Origin: Symploca sp. SIO2E9
GTDB taxonomy: Bacteria > Cyanobacteriota > Cyanobacteriia > Cyanobacteriales > Coleofasciculaceae
Direction: 5' to 3'
Assembly (NCBI GenBank): GCA_010692645.1
Contig: JAAHGS010000019.1
Span: 1-64,000 of the forward strand
DNA: 64,000 nt
Made by a program: the position numbers and the translations under genes. Every line of letters begins with the position of its first letter. Position 1 is the stretch's first letter. Below, piece after piece: positions 9,789-63,726 of this stretch. The notes under the pieces were generated by a model that had not been told where the DNA came from, ran no database searches, and saw only the letters and a list, made by a program, of their open reading frames with translations.

Positions 9789-12700
9789 ATGAGTAGTATC
9801 CCGCATCAACCTGAAGATGTCACTGCCTTTAATGATAGTTCCCTCAATACTCTGGTGCGGGCGATTAAGCTTTCTCAGGGGCAGTTTTATCTGATTTTGG
9901 CGCGTTGCAATTATGCCGCCTTGCGGGAGCGGATTGTGCCAAGGTTGCGGGAGCTATGCCCTGTTGAGATTGAGGAGCTATTTTTGCCTGAATCTTTCGA
10001 TGACCTCTACCATACCATTGAGGCAAAACTTGCTTATCAACAGCCACCAACTTTGATGGTATTTGGTCTAGAGTCAGTAAGTAACCTTGATAGTATTCTA
10101 ACTTCTACTACCTATATCCGGGAAGAATTTAAGAACAATTTTAAATTTCCCCTAGTATTGTGGCTCAATGATCAGGTGTTAGAAAGGATGCTGCGCTTAG
10201 CCCCTGATTTTGAAAGTTGGACGACAAACATTGAGTTTGTAATCGCTACTGATGAATTAATTAAGTTTCTCCAGCAAGAAGCTGATTCAATATTTTCTAA
10301 AGTCTTAAATGCTAGCGAAGACCGATTTTTGGATAATGCTTCTATATATATGAAGAGGGGTGCTTCCCAGCGTCGCGAGTTGGAATTAGCTAGACAGGAT
10401 TTGCAAAGGCGTGGTGCCTGGAAGCCAGCATTGGCAGCTAGTGAACAATTCATTTTAGGTCGCGATGCCTATGCTCATAATCAAATGCAGCACTCTCGAA
10501 AACTTTATCAACAGAGTTTAGCTTTCTGGAAGCAAAGTAATGATTTAGAGCGGCAAGCTTGTTTGCTGTTTCATTTGGGACTTTGGTGGCGTAGATATGC
10601 AATTATGCATCCAGGCTCTGCTCACAAAGCCTATAGTCGAGCGCGAGATTACTATCAGCAATGTATCTATATATTACAACAGGCAAATCGACAGGATTTA
10701 GAGGCTAAATTTATCAATTCTTTGGCAGAAGTTCTACAGCAGCTACAACAGTGGGACGAACTTAAGATTATTGCTAAAACAGCAGTTAGTTTACACCAAG
10801 CCTATCCAAATCGGATTAGATTAGCTAGAGCTTACGGTTTTCTAGCTGAGGTTGCCCTGGCACAATCCCAGTGGCGCGAAGTCAAGCAGTATGCACAGAT
10901 AGCTCTAGACACAAACGCTCAAGCCTCCATATCTTCACTGATAGTATCAATTACTGATTTACCCTTACAAAACCAAAATAACGATTTTGTATGGGCGCAA
11001 CAACTTCATCAGAGTTGGTATCGGTTTTTGCTGGCTAAAGGGCAGGCATCTACGGGTAAGGTGCAACAAGCTAGTCAAAACTTAGAAGCTGCTAAAGATG
11101 AATTCAAGCCTGAGTATCATCCCCAACTTTATCTAAGAATTTTAGATTCTTTGCGCCAGCTTTACTTTGAGCAAGGTAAGTATTTAAAAGCTTTTCAAAG
11201 CAAGCGACAACAACGTTCAATTGAACAACAGTATGGATTTATAGCCTTCATCGGTGCCTTTCGTCTGCGCTCACAACGACAAGTTCTTGACCAAGCTTTA
11301 ATATCAATTGACTTAGAACAATTACATACTAATTCAGAAGAATTAAACTTAACCAAAGCCACTATTGCCCAAGAGATAATTTCTTCTGGTCGTCAGCAAG
11401 ATGTTGAGCGTTTAATTATGCGCCTGAATCGCTCTGATTATAAACTAATTGTAATTCATGGTCCTTCTGGAGTAGGCAAGAGTTCCCTATTAACTGCGGG
11501 ATTAGTACCAGCATTACATCAACAAATCGCGATCGATGGGCGCAATCCTCTGCCAGTTGTGGTGCGCTCTTACATAGATTGGGTGCGGCAATTAGGAATA
11601 GCTTTAGAAAAAGCTTTAGGAGAAATAGAGACAGGCAGTTATACAGCTTTTCGTTTTACTAATAACTCTCTACCTACGACACCAGATTCATTAGAAGTTA
11701 TTGTTGAACAGTTGCGCAAAAATGGAGGACGAAATCTATTAACTGTTCTGATTTTTGACCAGTTTGAAGAATTTTTCTTTAATTGCCCTAACCCAGTACA
11801 AAGACGAAAATTTTGGGACTTTTTTAAAACTTGCTTGGATAGTTTAGATATTCCCTATGTCAAGATAATCCTGTCGCTACGAGAAGATTATTTACATCAT
11901 TTGTTGGAGTGTGACCACCAAAGGGATAACGCTAGCGAAAACAGCGATATCTTGATGAATTTAGAGTTGGGAACAAACGACATTCTCAATAAAGAGGTTC
12001 GCTATGCAGTGGGTGATTTCTCACCATCAGATGCTAAACAAGTTATCCAAAGCTTAACCCAACGCTCTTTTTACTTAGAGCCAGCACTAATCGAAGAATT
12101 AGTGAGGGATTTAGCTGGGGATTTGGGAAAAGTACGCCCGATTGAATTGCAGGTGGTAGGAGCGCAACTACAAGCAGAAAAAATTGCCACACTGGCTCAG
12201 TACCAAGAAAGTGGTCCCAAGGAAAAGCTAGTGCAGCGATTTTTAAAAGAAGTCGTCAAAGATTGCGGACCAGAGAATGAAGCGACTGCTGAACTACTGT
12301 TGTACTTACTAACAGATGAAAATAATACTCGCCCTCCCAAAACTCGTGCTGAATTAGCAGCAGCTTTAGAAACCGAAGCCGACAAATTAGATTTAGTGTT
12401 AGAGATTTTAGTCAAATCAGGGTTAGTATTTGTTTTGCCACAGTTTCCGGCTGATCGTTATCAACTTGTTCATGATTATCTCGTTTCTTTCATCCGCCAA
12501 CAGCGAGGTGCTGAATTAATTGCTGAACTTGAAAGGGAAAAACAGCAACGACAACTGGCGGAAGCTAAGCTTACTATGGTTTTACAACAGCGACTGCGAT
12601 TAGCATATGTAGCAGGAATTGGTTTGGCAACCCTTGCAACTGTCTCGGTGGGATTGTCTCTGACAGCCATCAGTCAGACTAATGCTAATCTCAGTGAGTT

Positions 12701-14813
12701 AATTACTTCTTCAAAATTGCTTTTAGCCTCTGATCAACCGTTTGATGCTTTGTTCAAGAGTTTAAGTGCAGGCAGGCGTCTCAAAAAACAAATTTGGGCA
12801 AATTGGGTACAAGCTGATACTCACAACCAAGTTGTATCTACATTGCGGCAGGCAATTTACGAAGTTAGAGAGAGCAACCGCTTACAAGGGCATAGCACAC
12901 CAGTCAATAGCGTTAGTTTCAGCCCTGACGGACAAATGATCACCTCAGCTAGTGATTATGGCATTATTAAATTCTGGAGTCTTCAGGGTAAGGAACTCAA
13001 AAGTTTTCGAGGACATAAACAGTCAATTAATAGCGTCAGCTTTAACCCCAATGGTCAAACAATAGCTTCAGCTAGTAATGACGGTACCGTCAAACTCTGG
13101 AATCTTCAGGGCAAGCTACTCCAAACTTTTAATGGTCATGACAATGATGTAGTTAATAGCATCAGTTTTAGTCCTGACGGTAAGCTCATTGCCTCTGCTA
13201 GTAATGACGATACCGTTAAAGTTTGGGATCTTCAAGGCAAGCAGCTTCAAACCTTTGAAGCTTATAGTAACGGGGTTAATAGTGTTAGTTTTAGCCCTGA
13301 CGGTAAGCTCATCGCCTCCGCTAGTAATGATGGTACTGTGAAATTCTGGAATCTTCAAGGCGAGTTACTCAAAGACTTTAAATTAAAAGGTCAAGTTACT
13401 AGTGTCAAATTTAGTCCTAAATTTAGCCCTAGTAGTCAAATAATCGCCTCAGCTAGTAATGATGAAAATAACAAAGACTATGTAATCAAAATCTGGAATC
13501 TAGAGGGGAAAGAACTCGAAACTATCAAGGGTCACACCAGTTGGATAACCAGCCTTAGTTTTAGTCCAGACGGCAAAAAAATTATCTCAGCTAGTAATGA
13601 TAATACTGTTCAAGTCACAAACTTGGAGAGTGCCAAAATCCAAACTCTTAAAGGGCATAGTAATCAAGTTACCAGCGTCAGTTTTAGTCCGGATGGACAT
13701 ACAATTGCCTCAGCTAGTGGTGACACTACAGTCAAACTTTGGAATCTGGAGAATAAACAACCTGGAACTCTAAAAGCTCAAATTGTTAAAGGGAATAGTG
13801 GTAATGATCTAGTCACTACTGTTAGTTTTAACCCTAAGAAGAAGCGATTTGTCTCTGTCAACAAGGAAAATACGGTAACTGTTTGGGAAACTAATGGCAG
13901 CAAACTCAAAGCCTTTGATACTCAAGAGGATCATGCGACTATTATCAATAGTGTCAGCTTTAGTCCCGATGGAGAAACAATTGCTATTGCTAGTGAAGAT
14001 ACTTCGATGCAACCAGGCAAGATTCTGATTACTGAATATGTGGTCAAAATTTATAATCTCGAGGGTAGATTACTAAAGACTTTGAAAGGACCTAGTGCTC
14101 GGGTGGTAAGTCTCAGTTTCAGCCCTGACGGTAAGATAATTGCTGCCGCTAGTTTAGATCAAACTGTTAGATTATGGAATCAAGAAGGGCAACTACTGCA
14201 AACCCAGAGTAATCTTACCAATTATGTGAGTTTTTCCCCTGACGGTAACAAGATAGCCTCAGTTAATACTGATAACGATATTCAAATCTGGACTATTGGA
14301 GGTGAGTTACTTAAATCTTTGCCAACAGATAATGATCATGTTATGGGACATACTGATAGTATTACCAGTGTCAGTTTTAGCCCCGACGGTAACAAGATTG
14401 CTTCTAGCAGTAAAGACTCCACTGTCAGACTCTGGAATCTTAAGAAAGGCAAATTGTTGAAAACTTTAGGAAGGCATAGTGCTCAAGTCAATAGTGTGAG
14501 TTTTAGTCACCATGGTAAACTCATTGCCTCTGCCAGTAATGACCAAACTATCAGGCTTTGGAGTCTAGATGGCAAAGAAATCAGAACCCTCTTTGGCCAT
14601 GAATCTATTGTTTTGAATGTTAGTTTCACCACAGACGGCAAGAAACTAATTTCTGCCGATGCAGAAGGGAAAGTGATTGTCTGGGATTTGGATATGGATC
14701 ATCAAGAAATAGATGAGCTTTTGAAGCGCAGTTGCGACTGGGTAGATGATTATCTCGACAATAACCCTAGTCTTCATCTAGAAGAGCGTCAATTTTGCGA
14801 TCGCTGGCGCTAG
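9789..14813 (+). CDS. nSTAND-type NTPase: N-terminal degenerate ATPase-like domain, TPR-like region, P-loop NTPase, TM helix, 14 WD40 repeats
   Basis: GPSGVGKSSLLTAG Walker A, LTVLIFDQFEEFF Walker B, ILSLREDYLHHLLE; 14 recognisable xVSFSPDG..IASAS..TVKLWN units. Confidence 0.93.
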   Translation: MSSIPHQPEDVTAFNDSSLNTLVRAIKLSQGQFYLILARCNYAALRERIVPRLRELCPVEIEELFLPESFDDLYHTIEAKLAYQQPPTLMVFGLESVSNLDSILTSTTYIREEFKNNFKFPLVLWLNDQVLERMLRLAPDFESWTTNIEFVIATDELIKFLQQEADSIFSKVLNASEDRFLDNASIYMKRGASQRRELELARQDLQRRGAWKPALAASEQFILGRDAYAHNQMQHSRKLYQQSLAFWKQSNDLERQACLLFHLGLWWRRYAIMHPGSAHKAYSRARDYYQQCIYILQQANRQDLEAKFINSLAEVLQQLQQWDELKIIAKTAVSLHQAYPNRIRLARAYGFLAEVALAQSQWREVKQYAQIALDTNAQASISSLIVSITDLPLQNQNNDFVWAQQLHQSWYRFLLAKGQASTGKVQQASQNLEAAKDEFKPEYHPQLYLRILDSLRQLYFEQGKYLKAFQSKRQQRSIEQQYGFIAFIGAFRLRSQRQVLDQALISIDLEQLHTNSEELNLTKATIAQEIISSGRQQDVERLIMRLNRSDYKLIVIHGPSGVGKSSLLTAGLVPALHQQIAIDGRNPLPVVVRSYIDWVRQLGIALEKALGEIETGSYTAFRFTNNSLPTTPDSLEVIVEQLRKNGGRNLLTVLIFDQFEEFFFNCPNPVQRRKFWDFFKTCLDSLDIPYVKIILSLREDYLHHLLECDHQRDNASENSDILMNLELGTNDILNKEVRYAVGDFSPSDAKQVIQSLTQRSFYLEPALIEELVRDLAGDLGKVRPIELQVVGAQLQAEKIATLAQYQESGPKEKLVQRFLKEVVKDCGPENEATAELLLYLLTDENNTRPPKTRAELAAALETEADKLDLVLEILVKSGLVFVLPQFPADRYQLVHDYLVSFIRQQRGAELIAELEREKQQRQLAEAKLTMVLQQRLRLAYVAGIGLATLATVSVGLSLTAISQTNANLSELITSSKLLLASDQPFDALFKSLSAGRRLKKQIWANWVQADTHNQVVSTLRQAIYEVRESNRLQGHSTPVNSVSFSPDGQMITSASDYGIIKFWSLQGKELKSFRGHKQSINSVSFNPNGQTIASASNDGTVKLWNLQGKLLQTFNGHDNDVVNSISFSPDGKLIASASNDDTVKVWDLQGKQLQTFEAYSNGVNSVSFSPDGKLIASASNDGTVKFWNLQGELLKDFKLKGQVTSVKFSPKFSPSSQIIASASNDENNKDYVIKIWNLEGKELETIKGHTSWITSLSFSPDGKKIISASNDNTVQVTNLESAKIQTLKGHSNQVTSVSFSPDGHTIASASGDTTVKLWNLENKQPGTLKAQIVKGNSGNDLVTTVSFNPKKKRFVSVNKENTVTVWETNGSKLKAFDTQEDHATIINSVSFSPDGETIAIASEDTSMQPGKILITEYVVKIYNLEGRLLKTLKGPSARVVSLSFSPDGKIIAAASLDQTVRLWNQEGQLLQTQSNLTNYVSFSPDGNKIASVNTDNDIQIWTIGGELLKSLPTDNDHVMGHTDSITSVSFSPDGNKIASSSKDSTVRLWNLKKGKLLKTLGRHSAQVNSVSFSHHGKLIASASNDQTIRLWSLDGKEIRTLFGHESIVLNVSFTTDGKKLISADAEGKVIVWDLDMDHQEIDELLKRSCDWVDDYLDNNPSLHLEERQFCDRWR

Positions 14814-54546: not shown

Positions 54547-54951
54547 TTGTCTGATCTTATATGGAAGAACAGTGCTTCACACTTTCTGTATCATGCTGTT
54601 TCTGTCTATTACGGGACTGAGGGTAAATCCCCTTACACTAGAGGTTGCTACATTTATTCAGAAAGTGCTCGTTTCGACTATGCCGCAAATCTAGACTCAG
54701 CTCTTATTCCTAGTGTTAACTCCTTAGCAAATGAGTTAATTTCTCAAGGTGATAACATTATCATGGAGCCTGATCCCAGCACAAAAGAAATTTCTTATTG
54801 GAAATATGGTGATATCATAATACCCTGCGGTGGTACACATGTACGCAATGCATCCGAAATTGGTTCTATTAGAGTCAAAAGAAAAAAAACAGGTAAGAAT
54901 ACAACACGAGTTTATGCTTACCTGGAAAAAGCAAATCTTGGTCAACCTTGA
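54547..54951 (+). pseudogene. AlaX/AlaRS-editing-domain-like protein, possibly 5' truncated
   Basis: HFLYH (HxxxH) and CGGTH motifs, VRNASEIGSIRVKRKKTGKNTTRVYAYL; only a TTG start, frame open into the MITE end. Confidence 0.6.
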
Positions 54952-57064: not shown

Positions 57065-58498
57065 GTGATCACTATTGCCATGACACTAGATTTACTTAAA
57101 TTTTACGAAGCGATGGATCCCACCAAGCCTCTGGCAGTGGAAAATCCTGACGATAAGAAATACTATATTGATTTATCCTCAGTGCGAGGCAGCAACCTGA
57201 TTCAGGAGTTAAAGGACAAAATTACCTTTTTTTCTCGGGGAAAGCCCACTTGCCAAATGTTTACAGGTCATATCGGCTGCGGCAAGTCTACAGAGTTGCT
57301 GGTACTCAAAGCCCAATTGGAGCAAGAAAACTTCCATGTGGTTTATTTTGAGTCCTCTCAATACTTGGAAATGGGAGATGTTGATGTTAGTGATATTTTA
57401 TTGGCGATCGCTCGCCAGGTGAGTGAAAGTATGACCAACCTGGATAAAATTGAAATTGAGCAACCCAAAACTCTTAATTCTTTATTAAGAGGAGCTGCTA
57501 GACTTTTACAGACAGAAATCGAGCTTTCTGCACAAGCTTCGCTTCCTGGCATTGGTAAAGTGGCTGCTAGCACGGAGGGAGAGTTCTCGATTGCAGCAGG
57601 GATTCCAGGTGTTGGTCAACTTAATGCCTCTCATGACGATGGCTTCTCACTGGTGGCGCTAGGCATCGGCAAAATTACCGCCAGAGCCAAGAATAGTCCT
57701 GAACTGCGTTCTAAACTCAGAGAATATCTAGAACCCCGCACTAAAGGGATTATTGATGCTATTAATCAGGAGCTGTTGGTAGCAGCACAGGCAAAACTCA
57801 AGCAACAGGGCAAAAAGGGACTAGTCGTTATTGTTGATAATCTTGATCGTGTAGAGAGCGTCAAGAAGCCTACAGGGCGCACCCAGCCAGAATATTTATT
57901 TGTGGATCGGGGTGAACAGTTACGTCAGTTAGGTTGTCATGTAGTTTATACTATGCCCCTAGGCTTAATTTTTTCTAATGAATATGGTCGGTTAACTGAG
58001 CGGTTTGGGATAGACCCCAAGGTGCTGCCGATGGTGCCGGTGCGGTTGCGAGAAGGCAGTGAATGCGATGCAGGAATGGCACTGCTGCGACAAATGGTAC
58101 TGGCAAGAGCCTTTCCTGATAAGTCTCCTCAGCAACGTTTGGATCTTATCGGTGAAGTTTTTGATCATGGAGACACTTTAGATCGATTATGCTGCGTTAG
58201 TGGTGGTCATGTTCGAGAATTACTCAGGCTTCTTAATGAGTGGATTGAGCAGGAAAGAAAACTTCCTCTTTCCCATAAAGGCTTGGAACATGTAATTAGA
58301 GCCCGCCGCAATCAAATGAAGTTGGCAATTGATGAGGATGAGTGGCATTTATTGCGTCAGGTGCAGAAGCGTAAACAGGTTCGAGGAGATGGAGCATACC
58401 AAATCCTGATCCGCAGTCGGTTTGTCTATGAGTACCGCGATAACCAAGGCTCTTGGTTTGATATCAACCCGATTTTGATTGAAGCGGAGGAGTTTTAG
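57065..58498 (+). CDS. P-loop ATPase (AAA-like), first gene of a STAND operon
   Basis: Walker A TGHIGCGKST, Walker B LVVIVDNLDRV; internal 20-aa GIGK-type repeats; overlaps next gene by 1 nt. Confidence 0.9.
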   Translation: MITIAMTLDLLKFYEAMDPTKPLAVENPDDKKYYIDLSSVRGSNLIQELKDKITFFSRGKPTCQMFTGHIGCGKSTELLVLKAQLEQENFHVVYFESSQYLEMGDVDVSDILLAIARQVSESMTNLDKIEIEQPKTLNSLLRGAARLLQTEIELSAQASLPGIGKVAASTEGEFSIAAGIPGVGQLNASHDDGFSLVALGIGKITARAKNSPELRSKLREYLEPRTKGIIDAINQELLVAAQAKLKQQGKKGLVVIVDNLDRVESVKKPTGRTQPEYLFVDRGEQLRQLGCHVVYTMPLGLIFSNEYGRLTERFGIDPKVLPMVPVRLREGSECDAGMALLRQMVLARAFPDKSPQQRLDLIGEVFDHGDTLDRLCCVSGGHVRELLRLLNEWIEQERKLPLSHKGLEHVIRARRNQMKLAIDEDEWHLLRQVQKRKQVRGDGAYQILIRSRFVYEYRDNQGSWFDINPILIEAEEF

Positions 58499-61400
58499 TG
58501 ATGATGTACCCGCAGCAACTTGCAGATATCGAATATGAAAATAGGAACTCCTTACAAGCCTTGATCTGGGCAACTAAAGCTTCTCAGGAAAAATTTTCAC
58601 TGATTCTGGCACGGTGTAATTATACTAGCTTGCGAGAGCAAATGGTGCAGAAGTTGCGGTCGCAGTTGCTTGAGAATAGCTCGCTTTCATTCTCTGAGAT
58701 TGTTTTGGATCACTCAGTCAATCAACTGTTTACCACGCTCAAGGCTCAACTGGGGGATGAGCAGCCACCAGCATTAATGGTATTTGGCCTCGAATCCTTA
58801 ACCAATCTAGAGAAAGTGCTGACAGCAGCTAACCAAGTCAGAGAGGAGTTTGGCAAGAACTTTCACTTTCCCCTAGTGTTTTGGGTAACTGACCAGGTGA
58901 TGCGTCGTATAATTCGCATAGCACCAGATTTTTACAGTTGGGCAACCAGCGTTGAATTTACGACCGCTAATGATGAATTAACTGATTTGATCGAGCAAAG
59001 TGCAGATCGAGTCTTTGCTAAAGTTTTAGAGGTTGGTGCTGGCTTATTTTTAGACAATAGAGCTTTTAATCTAGGAATAGGTTCCCCACTGCTAGCTGAA
59101 CTAGAGGCAGCACGACAAGAACTGCTTGCTCGTGGAGTGAGTTTAGAGCCTCAATTAGAAGCTAGTTTGGAATTTGTTCTAGCTCGAGCTGCCAATGGCT
59201 CTCTGGAGGAATCTAGAGAGCATTATGAGCGCAGTTTAGAGCTATGGCAACAGCTTTTGCTCTCAGCAGGGGAGAGGGAGAGAGGGAGAGGGGGAGAGGG
59301 GGAGAGGGGGAGAGGAAGGATAGAGATTCCAGAGTTTGACAATAGTTCTGTGGCTCCTGGAGTTGTTTCTACAGGGCTAAGGGTAAGATCGTCTCATCTT
59401 CAGACTAACTCTCGCTACAATTACACTGCTTCTCAAATGGAGCGCCTTGGATGTGTACTGCATAGTTTGGGTTTATGGTGGCGTACCTATGCTGAAAGGC
59501 ATCGCGCTGAGTATAAGAGTTCTTATCAACGAGCTCAAGATTATTTTCAGCAAAGTGTTGAGGTGTTTAGGCAGACTGGTAACCAAGAACTAGTTGCTAA
59601 GTTTATCAATTCCTTGGGGGGAGTACTGCAAAGACTCCAACTTTGGCAGGAGTTAGAGAAAGTTGCTCAAGAAGCGTTTGAACTCCATCAAGTCTACTTT
59701 AACCCTTTCAGACAGGCGCGAGTCTATGGGTTTCTCGCTGAGGTAGCACTGGCGAAATCAGCTGCTGGTGAGGCAGATAATTTTGCTCGACAAGCTATCT
59801 CAATTCTAGAGAATGCCTGCTCTGTTGCCTTAACTAGTGTTTCTCCTGAAGATAGAAGTGATTTAGAGGCAGTATGTTCTCATCACAAAAGTTGGTATTT
59901 ATTTTCTTTAGCGAGAGCTCAAAAGACTCTGGGATTATGCCAAGAAAGCCTGAATAATCTAGAAGCAGCTTTGGTACAAACCAAGCCTCACTATGAGCCA
60001 AATCTTTATATTGAGATTTTGCAGCATTTACGAAATTGTTATTTTCAACAAGGCGACTATCTTAGAGCTTTTCAGTTTAAGCAGCAGCAAGGCTCGATTG
60101 AGCAACAGTTTAGTTTTAGAGCTTTCATTGGTGCTGGTCGTTTAGAGCCAGAACAACAGGTAAGTAATCCCATTTTACCAGACACTAATGAACAGGAGAA
60201 AGTTGCTAGGGAAATTGTTGCTGCTGGCAGGGAAAGGGATATCCAGAAGCTAGTTGAACGCCTGAGTCGTAATGACCGTAAATTAACAGTTATTTATGGA
60301 CCCTCAGGAGTTGGTAAAAGTTCAATAGTGCAGGCAGGGTTAATCCCTACTTTGAAAGAGAGAGCTATTAGTACCCGCGAAGTTTTACCAGTTTTGCAGC
60401 AGGTTTATAGTGATTGGATTCAAGAGTTTAGCAAGCGCTTAACCAAGGCAATTGCTGATTTAGAATACTCTCAAAGGCGGCAACATGGAATTGGCTACTG
60501 CAGCAGTCAAGAAGCGATAGCGCCTAGTTGTAGTTTGGAGTTAGGAGATAATGACCATCAACTGGAAACTGTCGAAAATAATCAGAGGACTGTTCAGGAA
60601 AAGATTATCAGTCCTAATCAGCCATTCCTAATTCCAAAAATTTTGGAGCAGCTAAAAAAAAATGCCAATCAAAAGTTGTTAACTATTCTAATTTTTGACC
60701 AATTTGAAGAATTTTTCTTTGTTTATAAAGAACCTGAACAGAAACAGATTTTTTATAATTTCCTCAAGTCCTGTTTGGATATACCTTTTTTGAAGGTAAT
60801 TTTATCCCTACGCGAGGACTATTTACATTATCTATTGGAGTGCGATCGCTTAACAAATTTAGAAGTCATCAATAACGACATTCTTAATAAAAATATTCTT
60901 TATCACTTAGGTAATTTTACAAAAGAAGATGCTAGAAGAATCATCCAAAACTTAACTGATTCCACCTGCTTTCCTCTAGATTCATCCTTGATTGATGAAT
61001 TAGTAGAAGATTTAGCAGAAGAACTAGGAGAGGTGCGCCCGATTGAGTTGCAGTTAGTGGGGGCACAATTGCAAACCGATAGAATCTCGACGCTGGAGGA
61101 GTATCGGCAATATGGCTCACAAAAAAAACTAGTTGAGCGATATTTGGCAGAGGTTATCGAAGACTGCGGGGCAGAAAATCAAAGTACTGCAGAACTGGTT
61201 TTATACTTACTTACCAATGAAAACAATACTCGCCCTCTCAAGACGAGCGAAGATTTAGAAACAGACTTAAAAGCGCTGGCAGTAGATACAGCCATAACAG
61301 CCGAAACCTTAAATCTGATTTTGGCAATTTTTGTGCAATCAGGTTTAGTATTCTTGGTGCCAGAAACTCCTGCTAGTCGTTATCAATTAGTTCATGATTA

Positions 61401-63726
61401 TTTGGTTGATATTATCCGCCAACGAAGAGGAGCTGAGGCTTTAGCCGCCTTCAAAGAGGAGCAAGAGAAGCGTAAGCTCTCAGAAGAGAAACTACATTTG
61501 CTTGTGAAGCGGCAACTAAAAGCAGCAGTTTTTACGGGCTTAATCCTGGCAATTTCAACCCTGTCAGCTATCACCTTTGCAGCGCAAGCAGAATCGAATC
61601 GGCAAAAGTTAGAAAAAAGTCAAATACATGCTCTTAGTAAGACTTCCGAGGCGCTTTTTGCCTCAAATCAAAAGTTTGAGGCCTTACAAGAAGTTCTCAA
61701 AGCCGGAACCAAATTGCAACAAGCTGCTTGGGCAAAAAACGATGCTTTGATTCGAGAGCAAGTTATGGCAGCATTACAGCAGCCAGTTTACTGGCTAGTA
61801 GAGCGTAATCGCCTGCAGGGACATGAGGGCATTGTCTGGGATGTAAGTGTTTCACCTGACGGTAAGATCATTGCCTCAGGCAGTTATGACCAAACTCTCA
61901 GACTGTGGAAAGCTGATGGCACTTTAATTGAGGAAGTTCGGGCTCATGAAGACCGGGTTTTAGGAGTGAGTTTCTCTCCTGATGGTCAGACCCTTGCCAC
62001 AGCTAGTTTTGATCATAGTGTGAAACTTTGGAAGGTTGATAGGACAGGAAGAGTCCAACCTAATCCCTATCATACCCTAAAAGGGCACGATGCTGGAGTC
62101 TATGATGTCAGTTTTTCACCTGATGGGGAATTAATTGCTACTGCTAGTAGAGACAACACAGTGAAACTGTGGAAGCACGACGGTACTATGCTCAAAACCT
62201 TGACTGGTCATAATGATGGTGTTAACGGTGTTAGTTTCTCACCCGATGGTAAATTAATTGCTACAGCCAGCAGGGATAATACAGTAAAACTATGGAAGCG
62301 CGACGGCACCCTAGTGGACACCCTTACTGGACACAAAGATATGGTCTGGGCAGTAGATTTTAGTCCAGATAGTAAGATACTTGCCACAGCTAGTCGAGAC
62401 AGCACTGTAAAACTTTGGAAGCCTGAAAATAGTGGTAACTCTTACAGGTCTTATCAAACTCTTAAAGGTCATAGTACTGCCATCCTAGGTATTAATTTTA
62501 GCCCAGACGGTAAGACAATTGCTACAGCTAGTCAAGATAAAACTATTAAAATCTGGAATCTTGACGGTACAGTGCGCGAAACTCTCAAAGGACACACTAA
62601 TGGGGTTTATGATGTAAGTTTCTTAGCAGATAGTCAAACCCTAGTCTCAGCTAGTGCTGACCATACACTCAAATTATGGCAACTTAATGGCAGTAGATTC
62701 CACAGGAATCTCAATGCTCATCAAGATGAGGTTTGGGCAGTAAGTTTCAGCCCAGATGGTAAAACAATTGCTTCAGCTAGTGAAGATAATACAGTCAAAC
62801 TCTGGAGCGATGCAGGCGGTAATCTGATTAAAACCCTCAAGGGACATCGTGCTGAAGTTGTCGATGTCAGTTTCTCCAACGATGGTAAAACAATTGCCAC
62901 TGCTAGTTATGACAAAAGTGTAAAACTCTGGAATCGAGATGGTAGTTTGCTCAAAACTCTTGCTAATGGCGATCAATTTTTTGGTGTTAGTTTCTCTAAT
63001 GATGGTGCAATAATAGCCGCTGCCAGTCGAGACAATACCGTTCAACTCTGGAATCGAGACGGTAGCTTAAGTAATACCCTACAAGGGCATCGTGACTGGG
63101 TGCGGGATGTAAGTTTCAGCCCAGATGATCAGATTATTGCTTCAGCTAGTGATGATAAAACGGTAAGACTCTGGAATCGAGACGGCAGTCTGTTAGATAT
63201 TCTTCAGGGACATAATAGTTGGGTTTATAGTGTTAGCTTTTCGCCTGATGGTCAGATCATTGCTACAGCTAGCAATGATAATACTGTCAAACTCTGGAAA
63301 ACTAAGGGTAGAGGCGAGCCCTACCAAAATTATAAGACTCTCAAGGGGCATAAAGCACAAGTTCGCAGTGTCAGTTTCTCAGCTGATGGTGAGATGATTG
63401 CGACGGCAAGCGATGATAAGAGTGTGAAACTTTGGAGTACAGATGGTACTTTGCTTAGAAATTTGACTGGGCATCGCGATGGTATTAAGGATGCAAGTTT
63501 CTCCCCTGATGGTCAAATTTTGGCTTTGGCTAGTGCAGATAGTAGTGTGATTTTATGGAATTTAGATGAGCTAGAGAGTTTCAGTAATTTAGATGATTTT
63601 ATGGAATATGGTTGTAGTTGGTTAAAGGATTATTTAAACAATAACTCTCAAGGGAGTAAGGATGATGCTCTAGATGAGAGCTTCACTTCAGGTCAAATTT
63701 GCGAGGGTATTGGTACTCCTGAGTAG
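58498..63726 (+). CDS. nSTAND-type NTPase with N-terminal degenerate ATPase-like domain, TPR-like region, TM helix and 14 WD40 repeats
   Basis: GPSGVGKSSIVQAG, LTILIFDQFEEFF, ILSLREDYLHYLLE; full-length paralogue of 9789-14813. Start GTG 58498 or ATG 58501. Confidence 0.93.
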   Translation: MMMYPQQLADIEYENRNSLQALIWATKASQEKFSLILARCNYTSLREQMVQKLRSQLLENSSLSFSEIVLDHSVNQLFTTLKAQLGDEQPPALMVFGLESLTNLEKVLTAANQVREEFGKNFHFPLVFWVTDQVMRRIIRIAPDFYSWATSVEFTTANDELTDLIEQSADRVFAKVLEVGAGLFLDNRAFNLGIGSPLLAELEAARQELLARGVSLEPQLEASLEFVLARAANGSLEESREHYERSLELWQQLLLSAGERERGRGGEGERGRGRIEIPEFDNSSVAPGVVSTGLRVRSSHLQTNSRYNYTASQMERLGCVLHSLGLWWRTYAERHRAEYKSSYQRAQDYFQQSVEVFRQTGNQELVAKFINSLGGVLQRLQLWQELEKVAQEAFELHQVYFNPFRQARVYGFLAEVALAKSAAGEADNFARQAISILENACSVALTSVSPEDRSDLEAVCSHHKSWYLFSLARAQKTLGLCQESLNNLEAALVQTKPHYEPNLYIEILQHLRNCYFQQGDYLRAFQFKQQQGSIEQQFSFRAFIGAGRLEPEQQVSNPILPDTNEQEKVAREIVAAGRERDIQKLVERLSRNDRKLTVIYGPSGVGKSSIVQAGLIPTLKERAISTREVLPVLQQVYSDWIQEFSKRLTKAIADLEYSQRRQHGIGYCSSQEAIAPSCSLELGDNDHQLETVENNQRTVQEKIISPNQPFLIPKILEQLKKNANQKLLTILIFDQFEEFFFVYKEPEQKQIFYNFLKSCLDIPFLKVILSLREDYLHYLLECDRLTNLEVINNDILNKNILYHLGNFTKEDARRIIQNLTDSTCFPLDSSLIDELVEDLAEELGEVRPIELQLVGAQLQTDRISTLEEYRQYGSQKKLVERYLAEVIEDCGAENQSTAELVLYLLTNENNTRPLKTSEDLETDLKALAVDTAITAETLNLILAIFVQSGLVFLVPETPASRYQLVHDYLVDIIRQRRGAEALAAFKEEQEKRKLSEEKLHLLVKRQLKAAVFTGLILAISTLSAITFAAQAESNRQKLEKSQIHALSKTSEALFASNQKFEALQEVLKAGTKLQQAAWAKNDALIREQVMAALQQPVYWLVERNRLQGHEGIVWDVSVSPDGKIIASGSYDQTLRLWKADGTLIEEVRAHEDRVLGVSFSPDGQTLATASFDHSVKLWKVDRTGRVQPNPYHTLKGHDAGVYDVSFSPDGELIATASRDNTVKLWKHDGTMLKTLTGHNDGVNGVSFSPDGKLIATASRDNTVKLWKRDGTLVDTLTGHKDMVWAVDFSPDSKILATASRDSTVKLWKPENSGNSYRSYQTLKGHSTAILGINFSPDGKTIATASQDKTIKIWNLDGTVRETLKGHTNGVYDVSFLADSQTLVSASADHTLKLWQLNGSRFHRNLNAHQDEVWAVSFSPDGKTIASASEDNTVKLWSDAGGNLIKTLKGHRAEVVDVSFSNDGKTIATASYDKSVKLWNRDGSLLKTLANGDQFFGVSFSNDGAIIAAASRDNTVQLWNRDGSLSNTLQGHRDWVRDVSFSPDDQIIASASDDKTVRLWNRDGSLLDILQGHNSWVYSVSFSPDGQIIATASNDNTVKLWKTKGRGEPYQNYKTLKGHKAQVRSVSFSADGEMIATASDDKSVKLWSTDGTLLRNLTGHRDGIKDASFSPDGQILALASADSSVILWNLDELESFSNLDDFMEYGCSWLKDYLNNNSQGSKDDALDESFTSGQICEGIGTPE

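Follow-up and report, generated by a model that had tools for sequence, protein, structure and literature searches.

We describe here a pair of adjacent genes found in a 64,000-nucleotide stretch of DNA from the cyanobacterium Symploca sp. SIO2E9 (contig JAAHGS010000019.1, positions 1 to 64,000 of the forward strand; the window, below). Gene 1 (57065..58498, + strand) is predicted to encode a complete, active AAA+ ATPase of the ORC/Cdc6/STAND clade, and gene 2 (58498..63726, + strand) a 1742-residue protein, in which a putative AAA+ domain deprived of its ATP site is followed by a TPR-like region, an nSTAND1 NTPase, a transmembrane helix and WD40 repeats. Judged from sequence and predicted structure, the pair would represent a two-protein surveillance receptor of the signal transduction ATPases with numerous domains (STAND), similar in type to the NOD-like receptors (NLR), a reading to which we give slightly better than even credence. 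Its role is likely to be in conflict and immunity, or in self/non-self recognition, in filamentous cyanobacteria; antiphage defence is unproven.

Conservation of the gene pair

Gene 1 and the N-terminal domain of gene 2, here called pseudo-AAA+, form a unit, genetically almost inseparable. In ten near-complete cyanobacterial genomes, a gene-1-family ATPase in the same orientation immediately precedes 40 out of 50 pseudo-AAA+ genes, and a pseudo-AAA+ gene lies downstream of 40 of the 45 gene-1-family ATPases, one of which was contributed by an eleventh genome; 52 same-strand pairs were counted in the loci of a genome-contig scan. The same pair is found on a plasmid of Acidisarcina (Acidobacteriota), where the gene 1 profile matches with E 4.9e-42 and the pseudo-AAA+ profile with E 7.7e-6. 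A preliminary description of the operon, which had proposed it as a candidate defence or signalling system, had named lack of conservation of the pair as a reason to abandon the proposal; this reason falls away, because the two genes are kept as neighbours across relatives. Over 45 loci, distances among gene 1 sequences and among pseudo-AAA+ sequences are correlated (Spearman 0.65), no more than expected for co-inherited neighbours.

The family was detected in 30 of the 116 cyanobacterial genomes surveyed (E<=1e-20), and several of these contain 3-7 matches. The genome-contig scan returned at least 564 relatives; host names and locus comparisons refer to the best 80 of them, and the named hosts of these loci belong to genera which we take to be filamentous. 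The sensor behind the pseudo-AAA+ domain varies, consisting of TPRs only, of NACHT and TPRs, or of nSTAND1, a transmembrane segment and WD40 repeats; some forms of the nSTAND1 type end after the transmembrane segment.

At the junction of the two genes (58486..58503, + strand; GGAGGAGTTTTAGTGATGATG), a GGAGGAG stretch is followed by the TAG stop codon of gene 1 (58496-58498), which shares position 58498 with the GTG start of gene 2, and then by an ATG at 58501. Translational coupling is plausible, because stop and start overlap and the ATG at 58501 lies 8-10 nucleotides downstream of GGAGGAG, itself still part of the gene 1 frame. A 4-nucleotide overlap of the two genes is present in several relatives too. 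Both reading frames, their overlap and the motifs named in the preliminary description were all found where it had placed them.

The ATPase encoded by gene 1

The open reading frame of gene 1 is listed with a GTG start and 477 residues; the true start is probably the ATG at 57080, since a methionine, nearly invariant in 79 relatives, stands sixth in the listed frame. The Walker A motif TGHIGCGKST (57263..57292, residues 67-76) and the Walker B motif LVVIVDNLDR (57821..57850, residues 253-262), previously described as intact, are both there and conserved: G68, H69, G71, G73, K74 and T76 of the former are invariant in the 79 sequences, as are D258 and L260 of the latter. Two further elements, both nearly invariant, were assigned by position, namely Arg313 (58001..58003), a candidate arginine finger, and the sensor-2-like SGGHVR (58199..58216, residues 379-384); all these features lie on the + strand.

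The AlphaFold2 model of gene 1 has a mean predicted local distance difference test (pLDDT) score of 85.5. Foldseek best matches it to Cdc6/ORC subunits (E 1.5e-5) and also to archaeal STAND-like ATPases, with RdrA of RADAR, CED-4 and Apaf-1 at lower ranks; the model thus assigns the protein to the ORC/Cdc6/STAND clade of AAA+ ATPases, with a predicted active site. In Pfam, gene 1 falls between AAA_22, ATPase_2, KAP_NTPase and nSTAND_NTPase5, of which only KAP_NTPase (PF07693) exceeds its cut-off (23.9 vs 20 bits); this family is matched by 62 of the 79 relatives (E<=0.01). QatA, another defence ATPase, gives a weak match. A search against sequences of solved structures yielded no usable relative, mS29/DAP3 lying in the noise (E 0.016), in agreement with the fold search. 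A scan of NCBIfam with gene 1 matched no family and, given also the Foldseek result, the protein does not correspond to a known housekeeping ATPase, a resemblance which the preliminary description had named as counting against the proposal.

Between two helices of the model, an insert is predicted with low confidence (57512..57691, + strand, residues 150-209). It is rich in glycine, alternates polar and hydrophobic residues, and varies in length among relatives, which contain one to several LPGIGKVAASTEGEFS-like units. The beta moment exceeds the alpha moment in 78% of the residue windows within the insert vs 45% elsewhere, and no run resembling a transmembrane segment was found in this amphipathic stretch, which might serve as a pore loop or form a hairpin in the membrane.

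Domain organization of the gene 2 protein

The annotated frame of gene 2 also starts with GTG. Its first 175 residues (58498..59022, + strand) were modelled by AlphaFold2 from an alignment of 68 sequences, plasmid rows being left out, as a five-stranded alpha/beta core with pLDDT 89.8. In a Foldseek comparison with the PDB, the top match is the AAA+ domain of Sir3 (E 9.7e-5), followed by RFC, ORC, TnsC and Hda; a sequence search of PDB chains found no usable relative, Sir3 being the second listed, in the noise (E 0.12), in agreement with the fold search. Sir3 is a catalytically dead paralogue of ORC1. ARCNY occupies the place expected for the P-loop, and GLES is found instead of an acidic Walker B. 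On the basis of model and motifs, the domain is best described as an AAA+ fold that has lost its ATP site, whence the name pseudo-AAA+. It corresponds to no Pfam family, the 68 relatives scanned singly giving isolated chance matches only, and neither NCBIfam, searched with the relatives, nor the PADLOC models recognise it.

An arginine following an APDFxxW motif, just before the predicted last strand of the core, is present in 11 of 17 pseudo-AAA+ relatives of the TPR and NACHT types, and in none of 53 sequences of the nSTAND1 type. The residue lies where an arginine finger would sit, and its retention would agree with a domain whose original task was to complete the active site of a partner.

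The remainder of the protein, all on the + strand, conforms to the STAND receptor with a repeat sensor which had been proposed. The TPR-like region (59098..60177; TPR_12, E 8.6e-15) is followed by the nSTAND1 NTPase (60226..61407), assigned to PF20703 with E 9e-35 and 121.4 bits vs a cut-off of 27.1; within it lies the second P-loop noted previously, GPSGVGKSS (60298-60324), which is intact, so that the domain belongs to the STAND NTPases. The 14 WD40 units are also recovered (61813..63558; E 8.7e-163), and we read them as two seven-bladed propellers, because they recur at a regular spacing of 40-47 residues. The single transmembrane helix of the preliminary description corresponds to a strong predicted segment (61522..61578, residues 1009-1027; Kyte-Doolittle 1.99), to which a marginal one, at residue 928 inside nSTAND1, has to be added. 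That description had also seen no effector domain: no recognisable one is indeed there, but the N-terminus is not featureless, since it contains the pseudo-AAA+ domain.

The hydrophobic segment is found at the same site, 3' of nSTAND1, in 39 of 43 relatives, with a mean net charge of +2.3 before it and +0.2 after it. The propellers of relatives are mostly free of cysteine, and the C-terminal tail (63613..63702, + strand) keeps a pair of them, in a motif common to many relatives (GC.W..DYL..NP....DR.LC). One genome has, downstream of the pair, an additional WD40 gene, the product of which starts with a stretch resembling a signal anchor. Taking these features together, we regard it as about evenly balanced whether the propellers lie outside the cytoplasmic membrane.

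A purine-rich, microsatellite-like insertion of GGGAGA type was observed in frame within gene 2 (59270-59319), where it encodes GERERGRGGEGERGRGR; similar simple-sequence stretches are found near other contig ends of the same genome.

Evolution of the sensor repeats

In the fungal HNWD receptors, the ratio of nonsynonymous to synonymous substitution (dN/dS) is high at repeat positions 10, 11, 12, 14, 30, 32 and 39 (PMC12222747). These positions were mapped onto the cyanobacterial WD40 repeats by their spacing pattern, and dN/dS was evaluated in eight relatives with recently duplicated repeats. In the eight arrays, values at the seven positions range from 1.3 to 2.0, vs 0.14-0.33 elsewhere; seven random positions reach the same level with P<=0.0002 in seven arrays and with P=0.007 in the eighth. 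When the arrays are pooled, positions 11, 12, 14 and 30 stand out, with dN/dS of 2.1-3.6. The pattern indicates diversifying change at the predicted propeller face in the recently duplicated arrays of relatives. Within the blades of the window protein, the seven positions that vary most include six of the HNWD set (hypergeometric P 2e-5); taken alone, such variability could be due to relaxed constraint. Repetitive prokaryotic WD40 proteins had earlier been noted to be highly diverse at their predicted interaction hotspots (PMC5587647).

Genomic context

Ties to predicted conflict systems emerge from some plasmid loci. Relatives of gene 1 are carried by seven plasmids in all, with 50-56% identity over the full query length. 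On a plasmid of Nostoc sp. C057 (L098:5818-9690), a SAV_2336_NTERM protein has the gene-1-family ATPase as its C-terminal domain (E 2e-31), and adjoins a MoxR gene and a protein in which VMAP-C (E 1.1e-33) and VMAP-M1 domains are recognised; no pseudo-AAA+ partner was found among the neighbouring genes tested. MoxR/VMAP ternary systems are predicted to counter invaders (PMC7159879). A short hydrophobic protein was observed after this set of genes. On the conjugative Acaryochloris plasmid pMB06, CHAT, NB-ARC/WD40, CHAT-TIR and TPR genes precede the pair on the same strand. In Acaryochloris pREC1 the pair is flanked by two tyrosine recombinases and has HicAB and a NACHT gene next to it. Published work on phage-resistant Nostoc makes no mention of WD repeat or ATPase genes.

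Relation to known systems

No earlier description of the pair was found in the open literature searched, the coverage of which is incomplete. The closest published idea concerns the two-gene systems of nSTAND2, where an active STAND-type NTPase accompanies a second, eroded NTPase joined to modules that vary, and a mixed ring has been proposed (PMC8195603, Fig. 6C). The two-gene operon with one active and one eroded NTPase is found here as well; the variable part differs, being GT4 or HEPN there and a sensor (TPR, NACHT with TPR, or nSTAND1 with WD40) in the present pair. The nSTAND2 family itself, PF20702, is absent from the listed matches of gene 1 (E<=0.05), of segments of gene 2 (E<=1) and of the 79 gene 1 and 68 pseudo-AAA+ relatives (E<=0.01). 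A scan of the Symploca genome found no PF20702 match either, and the control for that scan likewise matched nowhere. By analogy, the pair would work like an nSTAND2 two-gene system, and we do not file it as a member.

The VMAP/MoxR-vWA ternary systems are enriched in multicellular bacteria (PMC7159879), and one of them, that of Nostoc sp. C057, includes the fused gene-1-family domain; none of the genes on either side of the window operon was seen to encode MoxR, vWA or VMAP, which are present at the C057 locus only. With the KAP NTPases (Tmn, QatA), gene 1 has in common a score over the Pfam cut-off and a DxLDR Walker B. Classical KAP proteins have transmembrane helices inserted in the P-loop domain; gene 1 lacks them, and features the amphipathic insert and a fixed pseudo-AAA+ partner instead.

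The fungal HNWD NLRs (het-d/het-e; PMC12222747) combine a STAND NTPase with a double WD40 propeller, and the cyanobacterial relatives concentrate change at the same repeat positions. The domains around the propellers differ, NACHT and a HET effector there, nSTAND1 and the pseudo-AAA+/ATPase couple here, so that the resemblance is to be taken as an analogy, not as shared membership. Avs and other antiphage STANDs of the bacterial NLR type similarly join a STAND switch to a C-terminal repeat sensor. Their fused nuclease, protease or TIR effector was not found in gene 2, which begins with pseudo-AAA+, and the present pair differs from them also by its predicted membrane anchor, WD40 sensor and partner ATPase.

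Other copies and neighbouring genes

The Symploca sp. SIO2E9 genome (7.75 Mb in 383 contigs) contains six copies of gene 1 at >=57% identity, including that of the window, along with more distant relatives. The N-terminal domain of gene 2 occurs at 14 places, some of the gene copies being truncated. The window itself carries a gene 2 paralogue of 1674 residues (9789..14813, + strand), featuring pseudo-AAA+, TPR, nSTAND1 and WD40, with no adjacent gene 1; similar orphans were observed on contigs C146 (L104) and C73 (L105). These orphans might make use of a gene 1 located at another site.

Some loci deserve separate mention. On the Acidisarcina plasmid (L102:7929-10861), the annotated start of each gene lies too far downstream, so that P-loop and pseudo-AAA+ domain escape notice. 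On three Nostoc plasmids (L099, L129, L130), public records label the gene 2 proteins 'ribosome assembly protein 4', a name evidently prompted by their WD40 repeats. In one Symploca locus (L088:4771-8960), gene 1 continues into a second P-loop module within a single 996-residue frame, and the next gene is another ATPase, not gene 2. Two remoter loci (L108:834-3230 and L118:3034-4564), where a gene-1-like ATPase of about 400 residues precedes a short gene opening with a WSALVV/WSALIT strand, possibly represent another ATPase/pseudo-ATPase pair.

Upstream of the operon lie chlB and a gene for a peptidoglycan-binding/propeller protein, between which a small frame with a tRNA_SAD domain (54547-54951; E 3.5e-8) possibly encodes an AlaX-like editing protein. 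The GIY-YIG gene located downstream was excluded from the operon, because none of 80 loci contains a relative of it and, among 60 genomes of the order, no more than 4 have it. The flanking genes are not adjacent to each other elsewhere, which made an empty-site synteny comparison uninformative.

Interpretation and alternatives

In the mechanism that we favour, gene 2 would be anchored in the membrane and its propellers would clamp a non-self or damage ligand, upon which nSTAND1 would exchange nucleotide and oligomerise. The clustered pseudo-AAA+ domains could then nucleate an AAA+ ring of gene 1, either mixed or homo-oligomeric, and this ring, in the slot usual for TIR, protease or nuclease domains, would perform or relay the response, perhaps by means of the amphipathic insert, with membrane or substrate as its target. 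Since the pseudo-AAA+ domain fills the slot usual for an effector, gene 1 is probably a trans-encoded effector or relay. We consider improbable the most detailed version of this scheme, namely a transmembrane bacterial NLR with an outside double propeller recognising non-self, signalling from nSTAND1 through a pseudo-AAA+ scaffold to an AAA+ ring whose insert acts on the membrane, the whole being an immune or allorecognition receptor with a binding surface convergent with that of HNWD.

Several observations weigh against the favoured interpretation. Pfam scans of both proteins recognised no effector domain, and the profiles of gene 1 and pseudo-AAA+ do not align, so that the two share a fold class only. 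Truncated or orphan copies occur. Ordinary genes surround the window locus and most of the chromosomal copies inspected, which lends no support to the enrichment in defence islands that the preliminary description had proposed to look for, and no relative was found in viral contigs and phage records. The poverty in cysteine is weak support for export, because a control WD40 protein with no transmembrane segment is equally cysteine-free. As to the repeats, dN/dS was obtained by a simple Nei-Gojobori count; sampling was narrow, seven of the eight arrays coming from Nostoc or close relatives and one from Okeania, and the repeats of the window, 53% identical, are too diverged for such an estimate.

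The same machine might be a receptor for self or kin recognition or for developmental signalling (filament identity, hormogonia, heterocysts, surface sensing), rather than for antiphage defence. The ordinary surroundings of chromosomal copies agree with this, as do the several paralogues per genome, the presumably filamentous habit of the named hosts, the possibly extracytoplasmic propellers and the fact that fungal allorecognition provides the closest evolutionary parallel (PMC12222747); the plasmid copies beside CHAT/TIR/NB-ARC and toxin-antitoxin genes, the VMAP system in which a member of the ATPase family is fused and the patchy presence, 30 of 116 genomes, weigh against it, and on the whole we hold this alternative to be unlikely. 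Less probable than any other reading is a regulatory or housekeeping ATPase complex, involved in transport, envelope or chaperone functions, with WD40 repeats as a scaffold: ORC/Cdc6 and chaperone-like AAA+ folds are in wide use, and the failure of Pfam to reveal an effector would be accounted for, but a patchy multi-copy distribution, plasmid carriage, the swapping of sensor types among relatives and the apparent diversifying change at their propeller face count against it.

A further possibility, doubtful though the least so of the three, overlaps the favoured reading, from which it departs solely in the way the two proteins would cooperate: gene 1 alone would be the principal effector, a KAP/Tmn/QatA-like ATPase, and gene 2 only its sensor or inhibitor, with no mixed ring. 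The KAP_NTPase score of gene 1 and of most of its relatives, the weak QatA match and the C057 fusion, with its lack of a neighbouring pseudo-AAA+ partner, point in this direction; the missing inserted helices of classical KAP proteins argue against it, and the near-obligate pairing with pseudo-AAA+ suggests more than tethering.

Cyanobacteria abound in WD40-rich STAND proteins, mostly with no assigned function. If the two-protein receptor reading is correct, many of them would be one half of a receptor with a definable core, pseudo-AAA+ plus AAA+, which is not modelled by Pfam, NCBIfam or PADLOC, and an ATPase ring might be added to the effector types of bacterial NLRs. The family would also allow a test, in bacteria, of the idea that the binding surface of a receptor evolves as it does in fungal allorecognition, and the whole of it could be searched for by way of the pseudo-AAA+ domain.

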